A stretch of 64,000 bases of DNA from a methanogenic archaeon mixed culture ISO4-G1 (lineage in GTDB: Archaea; Thermoplasmatota; Thermoplasmata; Methanomassiliicoccales; Methanomethylophilaceae): positions 620,001 to 684,000 of the forward strand of contig CP013703.1 in assembly GCA_001563305.1 (NCBI GenBank), given 5' to 3'. A model generated the notes under the pieces. It was not told where the DNA came from, did not search any database, and saw nothing but the letters and a program-made list of their open reading frames with translations. This document shows positions 32,183 through 41,543 of the stretch, one piece after another. A program made the position numbers and the translations under genes. The stretch's first letter is position 1. Every line of letters starts with the position of its first letter.

Positions 32183-32518
32183 TCACTTCTTGTATCTTAC
32201 CAGTGCAGGGACCTGATGGCACAGCTCCTGCCCGAAAACCAGCTGTCTTCTCGGATTCTCGGAGGACATCCTGTCGAAGATCCCCTCCATCCCCTCCCAG
32301 CCGTAGAAGAAGACCATATGATCAGAGGAGGTGTCTGGATACACCGAGCAATCCAATCCGATGTCCCCGCACATGACCACCGCGTAATCCAGAAGGTTCT
32401 CCCTGCCCATGCGGCGCAGGCCGATGACCATCTCGGCATCCTTGTCGAGGAGGAAACTCTCCAGTTTCCTCTCCAGAGCATCGAGGTCTGATTCGGCGGG
32501 CGAGCAGAGTTCCTCCAT
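32183..32518 (-). CDS. Hypothetical protein, 111 aa
   Basis: Not recognised. A soluble alpha/beta protein starting MEELCSPAESDLDALERKLE, with 'YAVVMCGDIGLDCSVYPDTS' and 'MVFFYGWEGMEGIFDRM' in the middle and a basic end (VRYKK). No membrane segment or known motif is seen. Codon use is like that of neighbouring real genes, and it fits between two terminators/convergent genes. Confidence 0.6.
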   Translation of the reverse strand: MEELCSPAESDLDALERKLESFLLDKDAEMVIGLRRMGRENLLDYAVVMCGDIGLDCSVYPDTSSDHMVFFYGWEGMEGIFDRMSSENPRRQLVFGQELCHQVPALVRYKK

Positions 32519-32613
32519 GCCCCGACATATTTATCGCCGTTAAAAGGACTGCTGTTCTGTCCAGAACGGAGCCTGGTTTTTAATTGTTGAATGTATAACG
32601 GCGGTTGGAAACT

Positions 32614-33357
32614 ATGACGGCTAGCAAGTATGAGAGGGAGATCCGTTTCTTCGCGAAACAGTCGGAGTGGCTCCTCTCTTAGAAGGAGGACCTGTTGGCG
32701 AAAGGAGAGCTGACAGAGGATGAGAAGGCATGCATCGAGGAGATCGATGCCACCGTGGAGAGGTACGCCGCACGTAAGAAGGAGATAGAGGAATCCTATG
32801 TCGAGGCGGGCCTCGAGCTGCCGCTCACATCGAGGAACCTGAATGCTAGCGTGTATCCGATAGGGGTGTCATTCGAGCCCGTCGGAAGGGACTACAGGAA
32901 GGCGCTGATCGAGGAGACCAACGCCAGGAACGCGGAGACCGCCAAGGCCTATGAGGAGACCGAGGCTCCCGACACGGACGACATCGACCAGCTCAACGCC
33001 GATGTCAAGGAGATGACCCAGCAGTTGATGGACATCGAGACCAGGATCGCGGAGGCAAACATCAACGACGATGCCGATGCGCTGGTCACCCTCAGGCAGG
33101 AGTCGGAGAAGGTCCGCAGCAGGCGCGATAACACCATCAACAAGATCAAGGCCCTCAAGGTCGAGGGTGCGAGGTCAGCTTCCGCGTCAGGCGTTAGCAA
33201 GGAGTTCCAGGACAAGATCCTCAACCAGGAGCAGCAGATCAGCTCCCTGAGGACACAGATGGGTATGCTCCGCAGCGACGTCTACGAGATGAAGGACATG
33301 CTGGCCGAGATAATGTTCCGTCTGGGGATTCAGAGGAACGACGACCGCGAAGACTGA
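32614..33357 (+). CDS. Coiled-coil protein with in-frame amber codon (candidate pyrrolysine protein)
   Basis: From ATG 32614 the frame reads MTASKYEREIRFFAKQSEWL then LS, meets TAG at codon 23 (32680-32682), and continues with KEDLLAKGELTEDEKACIEE for 247 codons in total to TGA. The rest is strongly helical and charged with coiled-coil heptads (~25-55, ~95-150, ~190-240). Pre-TAG sequence has good coding character and joins the same helix. The organism encodes the full Pyl system and no annotated gene here uses TAG as stop, so read-through with pyrrolysine is plausible. The alternative is a start at TTG 32695, which has a strong AAGGAGG 5 bases before it. Function unknown. Confidence 0.6.
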
Positions 33358-33404: not shown

Positions 33405-35036
33405 TCAGGCAGCAGGCCTGAGGGACAGGGTGCTGAGGGTTCCCTTGGGGCAGATCCTCTCGCACCTCTTGCAGGCGGTTCCTCCGCACCTGTCGGTCTT
33501 GATCTCCGCCCAGAAACCGTCATCCTTTTTGATGATGGACAGGGCCTTCTCGGGGCACTCCTTGACGCACTTCTTGCATCCGATGCAGTCCTTGAGCTTA
33601 CCGGTGGTGACCGTTCCGGCCTGGATGATGTGGACCTTGCACTCCTCGGTGTCGGGCAGATCCCTCGCCACGAGGCGCTTGTGCTTGACCTCCTCGGCCT
33701 TGGGCATGGGCGGGAGCGGCTTGATGCCGTACATCTCCAGCATGTTGTTGTACTCGCTGAAGGGCATTCCGCCGCACCAGTAGGAGTACTCGATGGAGTA
33801 GACGTTCTTGAAGAAATCCGATGTGGCGAACATCACGTGCTGTGCCAGCAGCTTCTTGGCGAATGCCTTGAGCTCGTCGAGTGTGACTTCTCCGAAGATG
33901 ATCTTCCTGGCCATTCCGATGGAGGTGTTTCCGAACTGGACGATGTCCCTCGCACCGGGTGTGACCATTCCGACCTCCATGGCCTTGATGGGGTCGACGT
34001 ATAATCCGGACGCTCCGGACATGTATGCCTTCTGGATGTCGTCCACCCAGACGCCTGCGGCGTCCATGAGCGTGAGGAATCCGCAGCGGAGGGCACCGAT
34101 GGCCTTTCCCGCCTCCTCCACATCCTTGGAGCTGATCCTGATCCCGTCCTGGAGGTTGATGTATCCGTCGGGGGTGTTGATTACCGAGTTCGCGATGATA
34201 CCAGTCTTGAGCCCTGCGGCTAGTGCCGCGATGACACCGGTTCCGGTGATTCCCACGGCCTTGCCGTGCATTGGGCCCTCCTCCAGGACCTTTCCGGTGA
34301 TGGGGTCCACGAGGTCCCCTTCCTGGACACCTATGGTGTCGTCCAGGACGTAGCATCTCCAACCCTTGTCCGTGACCTCGATCTCGCTCAGCGCGCCCGG
34401 GGCGGCGAGCATTCCGCGCTCGATCTGCTGACCCTCCAGTGCGGGACCCGCCGCGGCGGATCCGGTGTAGATGTTCCCGTTGACTACCAGCGCCATCTCG
34501 GCGTTCGTACCGTAATCGACGACGATGCAGGGCTGCTTCTCCTCGAGGATGTCGGTCATCATCATCATCGCCATGGCGTCGGCACCGATCTCGTGGGTGA
34601 CCGCCGGCGGGATTATGACTTTGGCGTTCTTCATTCCCTTGATCCCGATGGACGTCGCATCGAGTACGGCTCCGTTCCTGTCGGGGGACACGATACCGAG
34701 CGCCTCGATCTTGTTCTTTCCGGCGTACGCCAGGTCCCTGATCTCGATGTTCTGGAAGAGCGAAAGCTGGAACGGGTTTCCGCAGACAGCTATGATCTCC
34801 ACGCAGGATAGGTCGATGGCGAGCTCCTTGAACAGGTTGTTGATCGCCGAGATCATGAGCCCGTTCGCGAGGTCCTCTCCGACCTCGATCGCGTAGTTGA
34901 CGTGGTCGATGACGTTCATTCCGGGGATCGGGTGGCGTTCCGTGATGGCCGTGGCCACTGTCTTCTTGCTGTCAAGATCCACTGCCTGGCAGCGGAATCC
35001 GCTGGTTCCCAAGTCTAATGCAATTCCGTATCTCAT
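33405..35036 (-). CDS. ramA: RamA, reductive activator of methylamine corrinoid proteins
   Basis: A 543-aa protein. It has an ASKHA-like ATPase region with N-terminal 'MRYGIALDLGTSGFRCQAVD' and 'CIVVDYGTNAEMALVVNG' near 170-190, and two C-terminal [4Fe-4S] motifs, 'CIGCKKCVKECP' and 'CGGTACKRCERICP' (about 485-530). RamA reduces the Co(II) corrinoid of MtmC/MtbC/MttC to Co(I) using ATP. Length and architecture match Methanosarcina RamA. It is divergent from mtmB, sharing a ~225-base control region; no corrinoid protein gene (mtmC) is in the window. Confidence 0.93.
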   Translation of the reverse strand: MRYGIALDLGTSGFRCQAVDLDSKKTVATAITERHPIPGMNVIDHVNYAIEVGEDLANGLMISAINNLFKELAIDLSCVEIIAVCGNPFQLSLFQNIEIRDLAYAGKNKIEALGIVSPDRNGAVLDATSIGIKGMKNAKVIIPPAVTHEIGADAMAMMMMTDILEEKQPCIVVDYGTNAEMALVVNGNIYTGSAAAGPALEGQQIERGMLAAPGALSEIEVTDKGWRCYVLDDTIGVQEGDLVDPITGKVLEEGPMHGKAVGITGTGVIAALAAGLKTGIIANSVINTPDGYINLQDGIRISSKDVEEAGKAIGALRCGFLTLMDAAGVWVDDIQKAYMSGASGLYVDPIKAMEVGMVTPGARDIVQFGNTSIGMARKIIFGEVTLDELKAFAKKLLAQHVMFATSDFFKNVYSIEYSYWCGGMPFSEYNNMLEMYGIKPLPPMPKAEEVKHKRLVARDLPDTEECKVHIIQAGTVTTGKLKDCIGCKKCVKECPEKALSIIKKDDGFWAEIKTDRCGGTACKRCERICPKGTLSTLSLRPAA

Positions 35037-35175: not shown

Positions 35176-35263
35176 TCCCTTTACAATACACATATCGCCG
35201 GGGAAGTGTGCCGTATACGATGTTTGGCACATGCTAATAACCGGCGAAAGACGTGATCGTCCG

Positions 35264-36646
35264 ATGACCGCCAACAGATACGTGGACATATTCGAATCCT
35301 ACAACCGCTTCGCCACGGGTGACAAGATCCAGGAGAAGGATTGGGATTACGGCATCGTCCCGTATAACGCCTCGCTGATGAAGAAGCGCTACGACATCGA
35401 TTTCGACGGTCAGATAATCCCCGAGGACCAGGACCTGGTCGACCGTCTGTTCCTTGCAGGAGTGGACATGCTCCTGACGTGCGGCGTCTACAACATCTCC
35501 ACCGGCACGCGCATGAGGCTCACCGAGGACGAGATCTACGAGGGCCTGAAGATGGCCCCCAAGAAGCTTAAGATCGGCGATGGGAAGGATGCGGTGGACT
35601 GCGTGGCACGCAGGGGAAACGCTCCCTTCAAGCCGATCATCGAGGGCGGACCGACCGGTGCGCCCGTATCCGAGGACATCTATTCGCTTCTCATCGGATC
35701 CTATGCGCAGGAGCCCATGGTGGACTGCATCGTGAGCGGTGTGTTGGACACGGTCAAGGGATATCCCGCGGTCAAGAACACCCCCTGGGAGATTATGGCC
35801 GCAATGATGGAGCTCACATACGTCCACAACGCGCTGTACTCGGCCGGAAGGCCGGGGATGGGCATATAGGGACCGCAGACCCCCCTCACATCGCAGGGAC
35901 GCATCGTCGCGAACCTCCACGAGCAGACCGGGATGAAGCATTCCGACCTCCATGAATGCTCGCAGCTCAACGAGCTAAAGGTCGACACATCTTTGATGAA
36001 CATGGTCGCTGCCTGGCACATGTCGGGCGACAACATCCTGATAGAGCAGATGCCGATCGTCGGCGGATACAGCGGAGGCGTGGAGGAGACCGCGATCTGC
36101 GACGTCGCCACCACGCTCTGTTCGTTCGCCATGCTCGACGCGGACATCCATCTGGGAGGACCAATCCACATCAGGTGGGGTACCACCACCAGCAGGGAAT
36201 CCCTGCAGGTCGCAGCGCACACCGCGATGGCAATCGACACCAACACAGACGTCCTCCTGGCGAATCAGTTCTACGCCATGGCCGGACCCTGCACCGAGAT
36301 GAACCTCATGGAGATCGCCGCCCAGGCGATGTGCGACACCGCGTCCGGAAGGGAACTCCTCTCCGGAGTGGCATCCGCCAAAGGGGTCATCAAGAACAAG
36401 GTCACAGGGATGGAGGCGAGGATGATGGGAGAGGCCTCCATGGCGACATGCGGCATGGATGTGCAAGAGGTCAACCAGATAGTTGACAGGATAGTGTCGT
36501 CCTATGAGAAGCAGTACGGCTCCCTGCCGAAATCCAAGACGTTCCAGGAATGTTACGATCTGGACCGTCTGTATCCGACGGACGAGTACATCCAGGTCTA
36601 CGACAAGGCCCTGAATTCCCTGTCCAACTGCGGAATAGATTTCTGA
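35264..36646 (+). CDS. mtmB: Monomethylamine methyltransferase with pyrrolysine
   Basis: The frame runs from ATG 35264 through TAG at 35867-35869 to TGA 36646, 460 codons. The amber codon is codon 202 in the context GRPGMGI-O-GPQTPL, exactly the Pyl202 context known for MtmB. MtmB transfers the methyl group of monomethylamine to its corrinoid protein MtmC. Family blocks include 'GGPTGAPVSEDIYSLLIGSY', 'HLGGPIHIRWGTTTSRESLQ', 'AGPCTEMNLMEIAAQAM' and 'TASGRELLSGVASAKGV'. Start 35264 matches family N-termini (MTANRYVDIF); an in-frame ATG at 35231 is possible. A standard gene caller would split it in two. Confidence 0.95.
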
Positions 36647-36754: not shown

Positions 36755-37042
36755 ATGCCTCAGACAAGCATCACGTTGAGAACGGAATCCGAGTTCAAAG
36801 AGCAATGCGATGCACTGTTTTCAAGATTCGGGATATCCACGATAGCAGCGATCAATATGTTCCTTCATCAGGCTGTGATGGAGCAGGCCATTCCATTCAA
36901 AATAGAGGTCAAAGAGGATCATCTTGCACGTACTGTGTCAAAACTGCCTGAAGCGGGAAGGCTCGATTCGAAAACGGGGTTGTATGTTCTCCCGAAAGAG
37001 TGGGACAATCCTGAGGACGACATCTATGACAAGCTCATCTGA
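36755..37042 (+). CDS. RelB/DinJ-family antitoxin
   Basis: A 95-aa protein: N-terminal ribbon-helix-helix of RelB/DinJ type (TSITLRTESEFKEQCDALFS, then 'FGISTIAAINMFLHQAVMEQ'), with a C-terminal toxin-binding tail 'LPKEWDNPEDDIYDKL'. It is preceded by A/T-rich sequence with a CATATAATCATATG palindrome-like stretch (about 36727-36741) that could be promoter plus autoregulatory operator. It overlaps the toxin gene by 17 bases. Confidence 0.8.
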   Translation: MPQTSITLRTESEFKEQCDALFSRFGISTIAAINMFLHQAVMEQAIPFKIEVKEDHLARTVSKLPEAGRLDSKTGLYVLPKEWDNPEDDIYDKLI

Positions 37043-37364
37043 TTTTGTCCGTTGGGATATATGGATCGCAAAGGTCGGGTTCGAGGATCAAGACGGTTTC
37101 AAGGTCCGTCCTGTACTGATCATAGATGGAACAAGCTGCTGTGTACTCTCTCTGAAGATAACGTCTCATGTTCCCAGGGAGGGGTATGATGGTGAGTACC
37201 AGATCATCGAATGGAAAGAAGCCGGACTGATGAAGCCATCGACCATCCGTATCACCAAACGGCTTTCTCTTCCGACCGATTCATTCTTGAAGAGAATCGG
37301 CAGACTGATGCCGCTAGATTGCGAGAATGTTTCTAAGATTTACAGTGAGATGTTCCCTGAATAA
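37026..37364 (+). CDS. PemK/MazF-like toxin
   Basis: A 112-aa protein from ATG 37026: 'WDIWIAKVGFEDQDGFKVRP' followed by VLII, the N-terminal beta-barrel signature of PemK/MazF-like mRNA interferases, with 'LSLPTDSFLKRIGRLMP' matching the C-terminal helix region. It overlaps the antitoxin gene, in the usual antitoxin-first order. Pairing a RelB-type antitoxin with a MazF-like toxin is less usual than RelB-RelE. It ends in TAA and sits between mtmB and tRNA-Pyl. Confidence 0.75.
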   Translation: MTSSSDFVRWDIWIAKVGFEDQDGFKVRPVLIIDGTSCCVLSLKITSHVPREGYDGEYQIIEWKEAGLMKPSTIRITKRLSLPTDSFLKRIGRLMPLDCENVSKIYSEMFPE

Positions 37365-37601: not shown

Positions 37602-37672
37602 GGAGGGCGCTCCGGCGAGCAAACGGGTCTCTAAAACCTGTAAGCGGGGTTCGACCCCCCGGCCTTTCGCCA
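37602..37672 (+). tRNA. pylT: tRNA-Pyl (anticodon CTA)
   Basis: Folds as a pyrrolysine tRNA of the truncated-PylS lineage. Acceptor GGAGGGC pairs with GCCTTTC (two G-U). The D stem GCTC/GAGC follows directly with a 4-base loop and no connecting base. The anticodon stem is ACGGGT/ACCTGT (6 bp) with loop CTCTAAA and anticodon CTA at 37631-37633. The T arm is CGGGG-TTCGACC-CCCCG, discriminator G, and CCA is encoded. It closely resembles the Methanomethylophilus alvus tRNA. A flanking inverted repeat (ACCGTTG 37596-37602 / CAACGGT 37674-37680) could extend the acceptor stem of the precursor. Confidence 0.95.
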
Positions 37673-37687
37673 TCAACGGTAGATATC

Positions 37688-38509
37688 ATGGTTGTCAAGT
37701 TCACCGATTCCCAGATCCAGCACCTAATGGAGTATGGGGACAATGATTGGTCGGAGGCAGAGTTCGAGGATGCCGCCGCCAGGGATAAGGAATTCTCATC
37801 ACAGTTCTCCAAACTGAAATCCGCCAACGATAAGGGCCTCAAGGATGTCATCGCCAACCCGCGCAACGACCTCACCGACCTGGAGAACAAGATCAGGGAG
37901 AAGCTTGCAGCCAGGGGTTTCATTGAAGTTCACACGCCCATATTCGTTTCAAAGAGCGCCCTCGCCAAGATGACGATCACCGAGGACCACCCGCTGTTCA
38001 AGCAGGTGTTCTGGATCGACGACAAGCGTGCGCTCAGGCCCATGCACGCAATGAACCTGTACAAGGTCATGAGGGAGCTCAGGGACCACACGAAGGGTCC
38101 GGTCAAGATCTTCGAGATCGGCTCCTGCTTCAGGAAGGAGTCCAAGAGCTCCACCCACCTCGAGGAGTTCACGATGCTGAACCTGGTGGAGATGGGCCCC
38201 GACGGGGATCCGATGGAGCATCTGAAGATGTACATCGGGGACATCATGGACGCCGTCGGCGTCGAATATACCACATCCCGCGAGGAGTCCGACGTGTACG
38301 TCGAGACCCTCGACGTGGAGATCAACGGTACGGAGGTCGCTTCCGGAGCGGTCGGACCTCACAAGCTGGATCCGGCACACGACGTCCACGAGCCGTGGGC
38401 AGGGATCGGATTCGGACTGGAGCGCCTGCTCATGCTGAAGAACGGCAAAAGCAACGCCAGGAAGACAGGCAAGAGCATCACGTATCTGAACGGATACAAA
38501 CTGGACTGA
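37688..38509 (+). CDS. pylS: Pyrrolysyl-tRNA synthetase, N-terminally truncated type
   Basis: A 273-aa class II synthetase comprising the catalytic domain only; the N-terminal tRNA-binding domain of Methanosarcina PylS is absent and no separate pylSn is nearby. Motif 2 region is 'FEIGSCFRKESKSSTHLEEF', the substrate pocket 'MLNLVEMG' carries the Asn and Val seen in the M. alvus enzyme, and motif 3 is 'GIGFGLERLLML'. It charges tRNA-Pyl with pyrrolysine for amber decoding. It starts 15 bases after the tRNA CCA end, so tRNA and pylSBCD are probably one transcript. Confidence 0.96.
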   Translation: MVVKFTDSQIQHLMEYGDNDWSEAEFEDAAARDKEFSSQFSKLKSANDKGLKDVIANPRNDLTDLENKIREKLAARGFIEVHTPIFVSKSALAKMTITEDHPLFKQVFWIDDKRALRPMHAMNLYKVMRELRDHTKGPVKIFEIGSCFRKESKSSTHLEEFTMLNLVEMGPDGDPMEHLKMYIGDIMDAVGVEYTTSREESDVYVETLDVEINGTEVASGAVGPHKLDPAHDVHEPWAGIGFGLERLLMLKNGKSNARKTGKSITYLNGYKLD

Positions 38510-38518
38510 GGTAAGGAC

Positions 38519-39574
38519 ATGATAGAGGACACGATCCAGAAGGCCGAGGGAACAGGCAAGCTCACGGTCGACGAGATAGAGCAGCTGATGTCGATCACCG
38601 ACAAGAACGAGATGGAGGAGCTCTTCGCCGCGGCCAGGAGGGTCAGGGAGAAGGAGTTCGGGAAGAAGATATTCACCTACGGGTTCGTGTACTTCTCAAC
38701 CTACTGCAGGAACAACTGCTCGTTCTGCATCTTCAGGCACTCCAACGACGAGCTGGGAAGATACAGGAAGAGCGTGGAGGAGATCGTCCAGCTGTCAGCC
38801 GCGCTGCAGGACAGCGGAATCAACCTCTCGGACCTCACGATGGGTGAGGACCCGTACATGATAGCGAACGATTACGAGAAGTTCCTCGAGATCGTCTCCG
38901 CTGTAAAGGACCAGGTCGGTATCAGCATCATGGCCTCCCCCGGTGCGATGCCCCAGCACATGTTCACAAAGGTCAGGGATGCGGGAGCCGACTTCTACGC
39001 CTGCTATCAGGAGACGTACAACAGGAATCTCTTCGAATCGCTGAGGCTCAACCAGAGCTTCGACGACCGCAGGAACCAGAAGATCTGGGCCATGCAGGCC
39101 GGGCTGCTCGCCGAGGACGGTATGATGATCGGTCTCGGGGAGAACGTCAGGGACAGGGCGGAGACCATCGCCGAGATGAGCTCCCTCGGATGCGGCCAGA
39201 TCAGGGCGATGACATTCGTCCCCCAGCCCAACACACCGATGCAGGACTACGTCCAGTACGATTCTACCGACGAGCTGAAGGCCATCGCGGTCATGAGGCT
39301 GGTCAACCATGACATCCTCATCCCCTGTAGCCTCGACGTCGAGGGATTCGCGGGATTCAACAGCAGGCTCGATGCGGGAGCGAACGTCATCACGTCTATC
39401 ATCCCGCCCAGCAAGAACCTGGCAGGAGTGGCGCAGCACGAGATGGACATCGAGAACGGGAACCGTTCCGTCGCCCATGTGATGGAGATGCTCGACAAGA
39501 AGGGTCTCCGTCATGCGACCGACGCCGAATACAGAGCACACCTCTCGGCCCACAGGCCCAAGAGGGTGGCCTGA
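38519..39574 (+). CDS. pylB: Methylornithine synthase (radical SAM)
   Basis: A 351-aa radical SAM enzyme converting L-lysine to 3-methyl-D-ornithine, the first step of pyrrolysine synthesis. The CX3CX2C cluster motif is in YFSTYCRNNCSFCIFRHS (~60-76). The TIM-barrel resembles biotin synthase, with 'LTMGEDPYMI' and 'GLGENVRDRAETIAEMSSLG'. It lies 10 bases after pylS, and its stop overlaps the pylC start (TGATG). Confidence 0.95.
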   Translation: MIEDTIQKAEGTGKLTVDEIEQLMSITDKNEMEELFAAARRVREKEFGKKIFTYGFVYFSTYCRNNCSFCIFRHSNDELGRYRKSVEEIVQLSAALQDSGINLSDLTMGEDPYMIANDYEKFLEIVSAVKDQVGISIMASPGAMPQHMFTKVRDAGADFYACYQETYNRNLFESLRLNQSFDDRRNQKIWAMQAGLLAEDGMMIGLGENVRDRAETIAEMSSLGCGQIRAMTFVPQPNTPMQDYVQYDSTDELKAIAVMRLVNHDILIPCSLDVEGFAGFNSRLDAGANVITSIIPPSKNLAGVAQHEMDIENGNRSVAHVMEMLDKKGLRHATDAEYRAHLSAHRPKRVA

Positions 39575-40734
39575 TGCGGATCGCGATCGTCGGAGGGGCG
39601 CTCCAGGGAATGGAAGCCGTCCTGCTGGCGAGGAAGGCCGGTTACGAGAGCGTCGTCATCGACAGGAAGAAGGATGCCCCGGCGTTGTCGCTGTGCGATG
39701 TGCCAGTTGTGTTGGATCCGTGCAAGGATCCCGAGGGTGCGCTGAAGATATTCAGGACGTGCGACGCCGTCATCCCGGCATGCGAGGAGATGGAGCTCCT
39801 CGAGACACTGGAGAGGATGAAGGACGACATGGGGTGCCCTCTGCTGTTCGATCTCGATTCATACAGGGTCTCCAGTTCCAAGACTAGATCCAACGAGATC
39901 ATGCATTCATTGGGAGTGCCGATCCCGCAGCCGTGGCCGCAGTGCGGATTCCCGGCGATAGTGAAGCCGTCATCCCAGAGCGGAAGCCTGGGTGTATCCG
40001 TGGCATACGACCAGGAAGGTCTGGAGAAGGGCCTGGAGATAGTCAAAGGGCTCAATGACGAGCCAGTTATTCAGGAGTTCGTTCACGGGAAGAGTGTATC
40101 CGTCGAGGTCATTGGGAACGGCACGACCGCCAGGTCCTACATCACCACCGAGGTTTGCCTGGATTCCAACTACGACTGCAAGATGATCAGGTGCAACCCG
40201 AACATCATGTCCAAGGAACTGTGCGACTCATTCGGGGAGATGGGTGTAAAAACAGCCGAGAGGATCGGACTGAAGGCGCTCATGGACGTGGAAGCGATCC
40301 TAACACCGAAGGGACTGAGGGTGTTGGAGATTGATGCCAGGATCCCAAGTCAGACGCCCGCGGCCATCCAGGCGGCGACTGGTGTGAACCTCCTCGAGGA
40401 GCTGGTCACGACCGCCCTCGGGAATCCGGCCGACAGGAAGCCCGACAACGGATGCTCCGTCTACAGGCACGTCCACTACAGGGACGGTGTCCTCCGCTCA
40501 TGCGGAGAGAAGGAGTTCGGACACCTCAGGAATCCGAGCTTCGGAAACGGTCTGTTCGGCTCGGACGATTCGATTTCGGACTATGTGCCAGGCAAGAACG
40601 AGTGGTACGCAGTCTTCATTTCCAAGGGATGTACGGAGGAAGAGGCCGACAGGAAGGCCGCCGACGTCATTTCAAACATCTTGAACGAATTAGGATTGAG
40701 AGAATTCATTGACGGAAAACCGGAGCTGATCTGA
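39574..40734 (+). CDS. pylC: 3-methylornithine-L-lysine ligase
   Basis: A 386-aa ATP-grasp enzyme joining methylornithine to lysine. It has an N-terminal Rossmann-like region 'MRIAIVGGALQGMEAVLLAR', ATP-grasp sequences 'PAIVKPSSQSGSLGVSVAYD' and 'PVIQEFVHGKSVSVEVIG', and metal-site 'LRVLEIDARIPSQTPAA'. It is the third gene of the operon, overlapping both neighbours by one base. Confidence 0.95.
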   Translation: MRIAIVGGALQGMEAVLLARKAGYESVVIDRKKDAPALSLCDVPVVLDPCKDPEGALKIFRTCDAVIPACEEMELLETLERMKDDMGCPLLFDLDSYRVSSSKTRSNEIMHSLGVPIPQPWPQCGFPAIVKPSSQSGSLGVSVAYDQEGLEKGLEIVKGLNDEPVIQEFVHGKSVSVEVIGNGTTARSYITTEVCLDSNYDCKMIRCNPNIMSKELCDSFGEMGVKTAERIGLKALMDVEAILTPKGLRVLEIDARIPSQTPAAIQAATGVNLLEELVTTALGNPADRKPDNGCSVYRHVHYRDGVLRSCGEKEFGHLRNPSFGNGLFGSDDSISDYVPGKNEWYAVFISKGCTEEEADRKAADVISNILNELGLREFIDGKPELI

Positions 40735-41543
40735 TGACTAGACTAACACCCGACCTTATCGAAGGGGTCCCTGACGACAAGATGGACCTCGATGACAAAC
40801 TGATGCACATGTGCGGCAAGACCGTGAAGCAGCTCGCTCTCGAGGGAGCCGGAGTGGACCACGACGTGGACTTCTCCAAATTCAGGGTCGCCTGCGTCCC
40901 CATAACGTCAGGGATGGGTGTCATCTCGGGATTCTCCAAGTCGGTGGATGCCATCATTAGAAGGCTGGGCATGCAGAGCTACGTCACCGAGGGGACCGAT
41001 GTCAACGGATTCGACGAGGCCATACTGGACGGCGTGGACATGATCATGATGGCCGACGACATCAAGTTCGTCGCGTACAACGTCCATGCGGCCAAGACCA
41101 CCAACAACTCATGGGGGACCGCCATGGGTTATTCCGTCGCTTTGAAGAACGCCGCAGGCGGTGTGGACGGGAAGGACGTGCTCGTCATCGGGGCCGGTCG
41201 CGTAGGTACCGAAGCTGCGAAGATCCTCAAGGGCTGGGGAGCGAACGTCTCCGTCACGGACATCAAGTTCGATAAGGCACTGGCACTTCAGGAGGAGATT
41301 GGTGTGAAGGCGTTGCAGGACGTCGAATCCGCACTGGCCGCACACAAGTACATCCTGAACGCCGCACCGGCCATATTCCCGGGGAGGCTCATCCAGGAGG
41401 GTGCCGTCGTCTCGACCCCCGGTGTCCCCCACTACTTCGACGAGGAGGCGAGGGGGAAGGCGAAGGCCATCATCCACGATCCCCTCGAGATCGGGACCGC
41501 AATGATGGCGGTCAACAGTGCCATGTACTCGTTCAGGCACTGA
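40734..41543 (+). CDS. pylD: Pyrrolysine synthase (dehydrogenase)
   Basis: A 269-aa NAD-dependent enzyme that oxidises lysine-methylornithine and closes the pyrroline ring. The Rossmann motif is 'VLVIGAGRVGTEAAKILKGW' (~143-162), with helix 1 region 'DKMDLDDKLMHMCGKTVKQL' typical of PylD. It is the last gene of the cassette and is followed by a hairpin terminator. Confidence 0.95.
   Translation: MTRLTPDLIEGVPDDKMDLDDKLMHMCGKTVKQLALEGAGVDHDVDFSKFRVACVPITSGMGVISGFSKSVDAIIRRLGMQSYVTEGTDVNGFDEAILDGVDMIMMADDIKFVAYNVHAAKTTNNSWGTAMGYSVALKNAAGGVDGKDVLVIGAGRVGTEAAKILKGWGANVSVTDIKFDKALALQEEIGVKALQDVESALAAHKYILNAAPAIFPGRLIQEGAVVSTPGVPHYFDEEARGKAKAIIHDPLEIGTAMMAVNSAMYSFRH

Follow-up and report, generated by a model that had tools for sequence, protein, structure and literature searches.

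A conserved in-frame TAG codon and a paired cysteine in a predicted coiled-coil protein of gut and rumen methanogens

The locus and TAG usage in the genome

The window, that is, the whole stretch of 64,000 nucleotides of the ISO4-G1 genome which was analysed, contains a gene whose frame runs from an ATG at 32614 through 22 codons to an in-frame TAG (codon 23), continues for 224 sense codons and closes with a TGA at 33355-33357 (Table 1). A TATA-like box about 40 nt upstream and a Shine-Dalgarno-like sequence fit this ATG as the start. Boxes of the TATATATA type lie at a similar distance from the ATG in the seven remaining homologues of clade A, one of the two sister clades formed by the nearest homologues, while TTTATAAG or TTTAAA occurs in several homologues of the other, clade B; GAGG or AAGG immediately precedes the ATG in most clade A species. 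Pfam and NCBIfam matches to the encoded protein are weak and of the generic coiled-coil kind, with no family over its cut-off, the MtmB, MtbB and MttB domains included, and no enzyme domain detected. A Foldseek search of the PDB returned no hits at E <= 0.001.

Table 1. Position of the features discussed in the text, in window coordinates
Feature	Position	Strand	Remarks
TATA-like element TTTTTAATTG	32577..32586	+	37 nt 5' of the ATG
Full CDS, coiled-coil protein with inferred Pyl	32614..33357	+	247 aa if TAG is Pyl; stop TGA; 25 further genomes of the genus have homologues
Helix 1 (residues 5-29)	32626..32700	+	AlphaFold2 prediction and conservation; bears the invariant KY-RE-RF block ahead of the TAG
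TAG codon 23, read as pyrrolysine (inferred)	32680..32682	+	TAG in 11/13 orthologues, GAG in 2
TTG, competing start, rejected	32695..32697	+	Unconserved; codons 5' of it show coding-type substitution
Helix 2 (residues 35-65)	32716..32808	+	AlphaFold2 prediction; antiparallel partner of helix 1
TGC, Cys40	32731..32733	+	Sole Cys of the protein; in 11/11 Pyl-bearing orthologues, in no sense homologue
RamA-like corrinoid protein reductive activase	33405..35036	-	RACo and Fer4 domains; convergent neighbour of the Pyl gene
mtmB, monomethylamine methyltransferase	35231..36646	+	Own in-frame TAG at 35867-35869; positive control
tRNA-Pyl (CTA anticodon)	37602..37672	+	
pylS, pylB, pylC, pylD	37688..41543	+	Family matches; PylS over the family cut-off at G000:C1:657826

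Linkage to ramA was found in 12 of the 13 genomes of the TAG-bearing clade: the coiled-coil gene adjoins ramA in seven members of clade A and lies 1.5 kb from it in G011, and in four of the five clade B genomes the distance is about 4-6 kb. Outgroup homologues are located on other contigs or far from ramA (e.g. in G013, G019 and G005). The linkage to ramA and mtmB suggests a role near methylamine metabolism, which is possible, though it is read from gene order and no function has been established. As to other neighbours, a divergent 111-aa gene without a Pfam match (32183-32518) is a conserved neighbour of the coiled-coil gene in clade A, and in clade B it is nearby too (L036, L037). ChlI/ChlD-like AAA+ genes follow the Pyl coiled-coil gene in clade B (L035, L036, L037), with amino-acid permeases nearby. 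Between mtmB and pylT, two small neighbouring ORFs (36755-37364) have a toxin-antitoxin appearance by eye, one RelB/DinJ-like and the other MazF/PemK-like.

The genome encodes the complete Pyl machinery (pylT, pylS and pylBCD). Within the window, two of the 49 ORFs were called as stopping at TAG, namely a spurious ORF of 56 aa and the internal TAG of mtmB. Stop codons were also counted over a 400-kb sample of evenly spaced stretches, amounting to a quarter of the genome, in which the 336 called genes end in TGA (310), TAA (24) or TAG (2); one of the latter two has an out-of-frame-looking tail and is likely an artefact, and the other is trailed by 11 more codons. TAG is avoided as a stop, being used by at most about 0.6% of the sampled genes (2/336), in agreement with the 1.6% of TAG stops in M. 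alvus (PMC4153887). The initial annotation had given the frame described above, had placed tRNA-Pyl and PylSBCD nearby, had predicted a helix continuing across the TAG and had stated that no complete annotated gene ends in TAG. All four claims held, the third in that the first helix of an AlphaFold2 model covers residues 5-29 and the fourth in that neither of the two TAG stops is a real gene end.

Translation and history of codon 23

Besides ISO4-G1, 25 species of the genus encode the coiled-coil protein (31 genomes searched, a contig scan returning essentially the same species), and it occurs in none of the 29 genomes searched outside the genus. The 13 nearest homologues align without gaps across codon 23, and few parts of the protein are as conserved as the segment SKYERE[IL]RF ahead of the TAG, which holds for homologues with a sense codon too. 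Within clade A, substitutions in codons 2-22 number 290 at third positions, 124 at first and 85 at second. In 11 further homologues, forming the outgroup, codon 23 is always a sense codon (CAG, GAG, GAA, AAG, TAC, GCC or GGA), and the homologue comparison shows coding sequence in frame on both sides of the TAG. Since the homologues keep the upstream residues and run ungapped through the TAG, and since the downstream TTG start is not conserved, the TAG is very likely translated by read-through; this is inferred from sequence alone, without protein evidence. It is very probable, again by inference, that residue 23 is pyrrolysine, which has not been detected.

Two other explanations of the TAG can be all but excluded. 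The first places the TAG in a leader and the start of translation at the TTG at 32695, a reading supported by the AAGGAGG found 5 nt upstream of that codon. However, the string is made of the Lys24 and Glu25 codons AAG and GAG. The TTG was rejected as a start, codon 28 being TTG in just two of the 13 orthologues (TTA, CTT, CTG, CTC, GTC, GAA, GAC or GAG in the others). Moreover, all homologues conserve the upstream residues as coding sequence, and the sense homologues begin at the upstream start. The second explanation is a sequencing error or a pseudogene, for which no support was found in the window copy; the identical TAG is present in 11 separate assemblies, and a purifying pattern is seen on both flanks of it. 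The initial annotation had proposed read-through and named the TTG as its competitor. The former was borne out, with upstream residues conserved and either TAG or a sense codon (for Glu, Gln, Lys and others) at position 23, and the latter failed, no homologue being restricted to the TTG start.

Among the 13 orthologues codon 23 is TAG in 11 and GAG (Glu) in two. On a protein tree built with the trait column left out, the simplest history is one gain of TAG on the stem followed by two losses, and the starred branches force three changes at codon 23. Column 23 underwent 2 changes against a mean of 2.64, a rate slightly below average, and the tree over which the TAG persists amounts to 4.1 changes per column. 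Loss of the Pyl machinery was rejected as the cause of the Glu23 variants: both GAG genomes (G011 and G012) retain PylS, and the loss of the TAG was therefore unforced. As residue 23 twice became Glu and the gene was retained, Pyl at this position is not strictly essential.

The Glu homologue of G011 (L008) is truncated near its end, codon 224 being TAA. In that of G012 (L007) the hairpin segment (codons 14-50) is far more divergent than the remaining gene, with 54-59% nucleotide identity, possibly owing to fast change or to recombination with an unknown source. A Glu/Arg segment shared by ancestry or gene conversion between the two is not supported, given their 54% nucleotide identity over the same codons and their different Arg codons (CGT and CGC). 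Residue 24 (32683-32685), a core position beside Pyl, is Lys or Arg in all 13 TAG-clade proteins and Leu or Ile in the sense outgroup.

Residue 40 and the predicted hairpin

A scan of the columns of the 13 orthologues identified a single other column with exactly the split of column 23, namely residue 40: every one of the 11 Pyl proteins has Cys there, and the two Glu23 proteins have Arg. Cys40 is found in none of the 13 sense proteins, outgroup homologues included. In simulations on the tree, 0.009 columns of 237 are expected to show a pattern of the Cys40 type, or 0.076 when any new residues are allowed. This chance estimate is post hoc, the test having been made after the pattern was seen, and the pairing is carried by two loss events, with recombination possible in the Glu homologues. 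Under these reservations, the balance of evidence tips slightly in favour of coevolution of Pyl23 and Cys40.

In the AlphaFold2 model, in which Pyl was entered as Lys, the first helix spans the TAG position with a pLDDT of about 89 and a second helix covers residues 35-65; the model is of modest confidence (pTM 0.33) and provides no coordinates. A hydrophobic-phase fit, from which columns 23 and 40 were excluded, places residues 9, 16 and 23 of helix 1 and residues 40, 47 and 54 of helix 2 at heptad position g. Two helices, a heptad hydrophobic pattern and a short joining turn, as predicted by the model and the register fit, meet the criterion for an antiparallel hairpin. Position g of one helix of an antiparallel coiled coil lies opposite g' of the other. 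Glu9 and Arg54 form an invariant g-g' pair, and in 11/11 Pyl proteins Pyl23 lies at Glu9+14 and Cys40 at Arg54-14, with a Glu9-Arg54 span of 42 to 49 residues among species and a hairpin tip differing in length by up to 7. Because both residues occupy g, g faces g' and the predicted helices extend over residues 5-29 and 35-65, Pyl23 is predicted to lie opposite Cys40 across the hairpin, a prediction which rests on the register argument alone.

Interpretation and comparison with known systems

The favoured reading, to which a probability of about 0.6 is assigned, is that Pyl23 is under selection and contacts Cys40; the identity of the residue, the contact and the function are all inferred. In this view the gene would yield one 247-residue protein, with tRNA-Pyl decoding the UAG at codon 23, and residues 5-65 would fold into a hairpin of two antiparallel coiled-coil helices, with further helices after it. 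In this hairpin Pyl23 (g, helix 1) would stand across from Cys40 (g, helix 2), two heptads past Glu9-Arg54. The TAG would have arisen a single time, in the ancestor shared by the two sister clades, and selection would since have maintained it along with Cys40. Two species would have lost both residues, and their Glu23 and Arg40 could form a salt bridge at the same place.

The Pyl side chain may pack against the Cys thiol, or react reversibly with it through its electrophilic imine carbon, fixing the hairpin tip. A thiol adduct on Pyl is plausible because the imine carbon is electrophilic and because sulfite, a sulfur nucleophile, forms an adduct with this carbon in crystals of MtmB and MttB (PMC9842639). 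Simple packing may explain the pairing equally well, and a covalent Pyl23-Cys40 bond, proposed by analogy and with its chemistry inferred, is unlikely. A bolder inference, of similarly low probability, is a genetically encoded, reversible covalent thiol-imine (thioaminal) staple across the hairpin. It is likewise doubtful that methylamine or ammonia would open such a staple by competition for the imine, so that the protein would sense methylamine beside ramA and mtmB.

A neutral origin is a possible alternative. Under it, a sense codon would have drifted to TAG in an ancestor where TAG almost never stops, Pyl would be tolerated on the coiled-coil surface, and the Cys40 pairing would be coincidence or hitchhiking. 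It is supported by a published drift model (PMC4153887), by the reversal of TAG to GAG, which occurred twice, and by in-frame TAGs of the same type limited to single species in other genes. Among non-methyltransferase genes, those of an aconitase (codon 593) and a phosphohexomutase are restricted to ISO4-G1 (G000), and other single-species cases are another aconitase TAG (G030), DUF531 (G028) and the paralogue CC2 (G030); the comparison comprises these five cases and is no full census. Against neutrality, the drift TAGs compared are not common to several species, whereas the coiled-coil TAG persists in 11/13, and the exact Cys40 match is improbable by chance. It is likely that the five compared TAGs resemble drift and that the coiled-coil TAG differs from them by its conservation across species.

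MtxX and DUF531 were rejected as comparators, their TAGs being unconserved and none lying within matched domains in G030. The DUF531 TAG of G028 (L106) is found in that species alone, with Glu in relatives (LAOKGRF versus LAEKGRF). The sampled quarter of G000 contains the in-frame TAGs of the aconitase (L149:650-3286, codon 593) and phosphohexomutase (L144:17435-18760, codon 387), together with those of a UvrD-like helicase (L150:16171-19068, codons 669 and 743) and a large NRPS (L154:3152-12433, codon 1313), the genes being named by eye from their sequences. An unknown 253-aa protein of G000 (L151:8778-9539) has an in-frame TAG at codon 54.

As a third reading, the early TAG could act as a Pyl-availability gate, tying synthesis of the protein to charged tRNA-Pyl, with the residue itself hardly mattering. 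The early and conserved position of the TAG and the proximity of ramA, mtmB and the pyl genes speak for it. However, it leaves Cys40 unexplained, as well as the heptad register held despite indels, and the TAG was dropped in two species that keep PylS; the gate is regarded as very unlikely.

For the question whether pyrrolysine is useful outside methylamine methyltransferases or merely tolerated, the coiled-coil protein offers a directly testable case, involving two residues in a small soluble protein with natural Glu/Arg controls. If the reading of a selected Pyl23-Cys40 contact extended to a staple, this would be a non-methyltransferase pyrrolysine function supported by evolution, and a Pyl-Cys bond would represent a new natural protein crosslink chemistry.

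The methylamine methyltransferases MtmB, MtbB and MttB, among the closest known systems, share with the coiled-coil gene a conserved TAG read as Pyl, and mtmB lies 2 kb away. They are, however, TIM-barrel enzymes whose active site contains the Pyl, unlike the predicted hairpin, for which no enzyme domain was detected. Antiparallel coiled-coil hairpins with g-g' pairs are generally known, and the heptads and g-g' register (Glu9-Arg54) are common to them and to the coiled-coil protein; a Pyl-Cys g-g' pair was not described in the literature searched. CC2 (G000:C1:777321-777587; L079-L083), a coiled-coil paralogue located beside Sel1-repeat genes, is a related coiled coil of the genus with a weak sequence match, but it is shorter, lies elsewhere in the genome and lacks a conserved TAG or Cys. 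Its TAG in G030 is at a different position, where a Gln codon became TAG and the near-identical G018 retains Gln.

The claim of the initial annotation that a structural Pyl protein next to ramA and mtmB would be new has to be qualified, predicted non-methyltransferase Pyl proteins being published for ISO4-G1 (25 Pyl genes, of which 9 are methyltransferases; PMC4824259) and M. alvus (16 predicted; PMC4153887). In ISO4-H5, 46 amber-containing genes have been described (PMC5011839), and a more recent paper reportedly suggests that in some archaea every TAG codon is decoded as Pyl. The coiled-coil gene may be among the 25 of ISO4-G1; none of the 16 proteins tabulated for M. alvus is a coiled coil of about 249 aa (PMC4153887). 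What is unusual here, as shown in 13 orthologues, is a TAG conserved across species of gut and rumen methanogens with a strictly paired Cys40. The predicted Methanomassiliicoccales proteins of the non-methyltransferase kind in the literature likewise come from genes intact except for an in-frame TAG, in genomes that encode Pyl and rarely stop at TAG, but the five non-methyltransferase TAGs compared here belong to single species, whereas the coiled-coil TAG is common to 11 species and paired with a cysteine.
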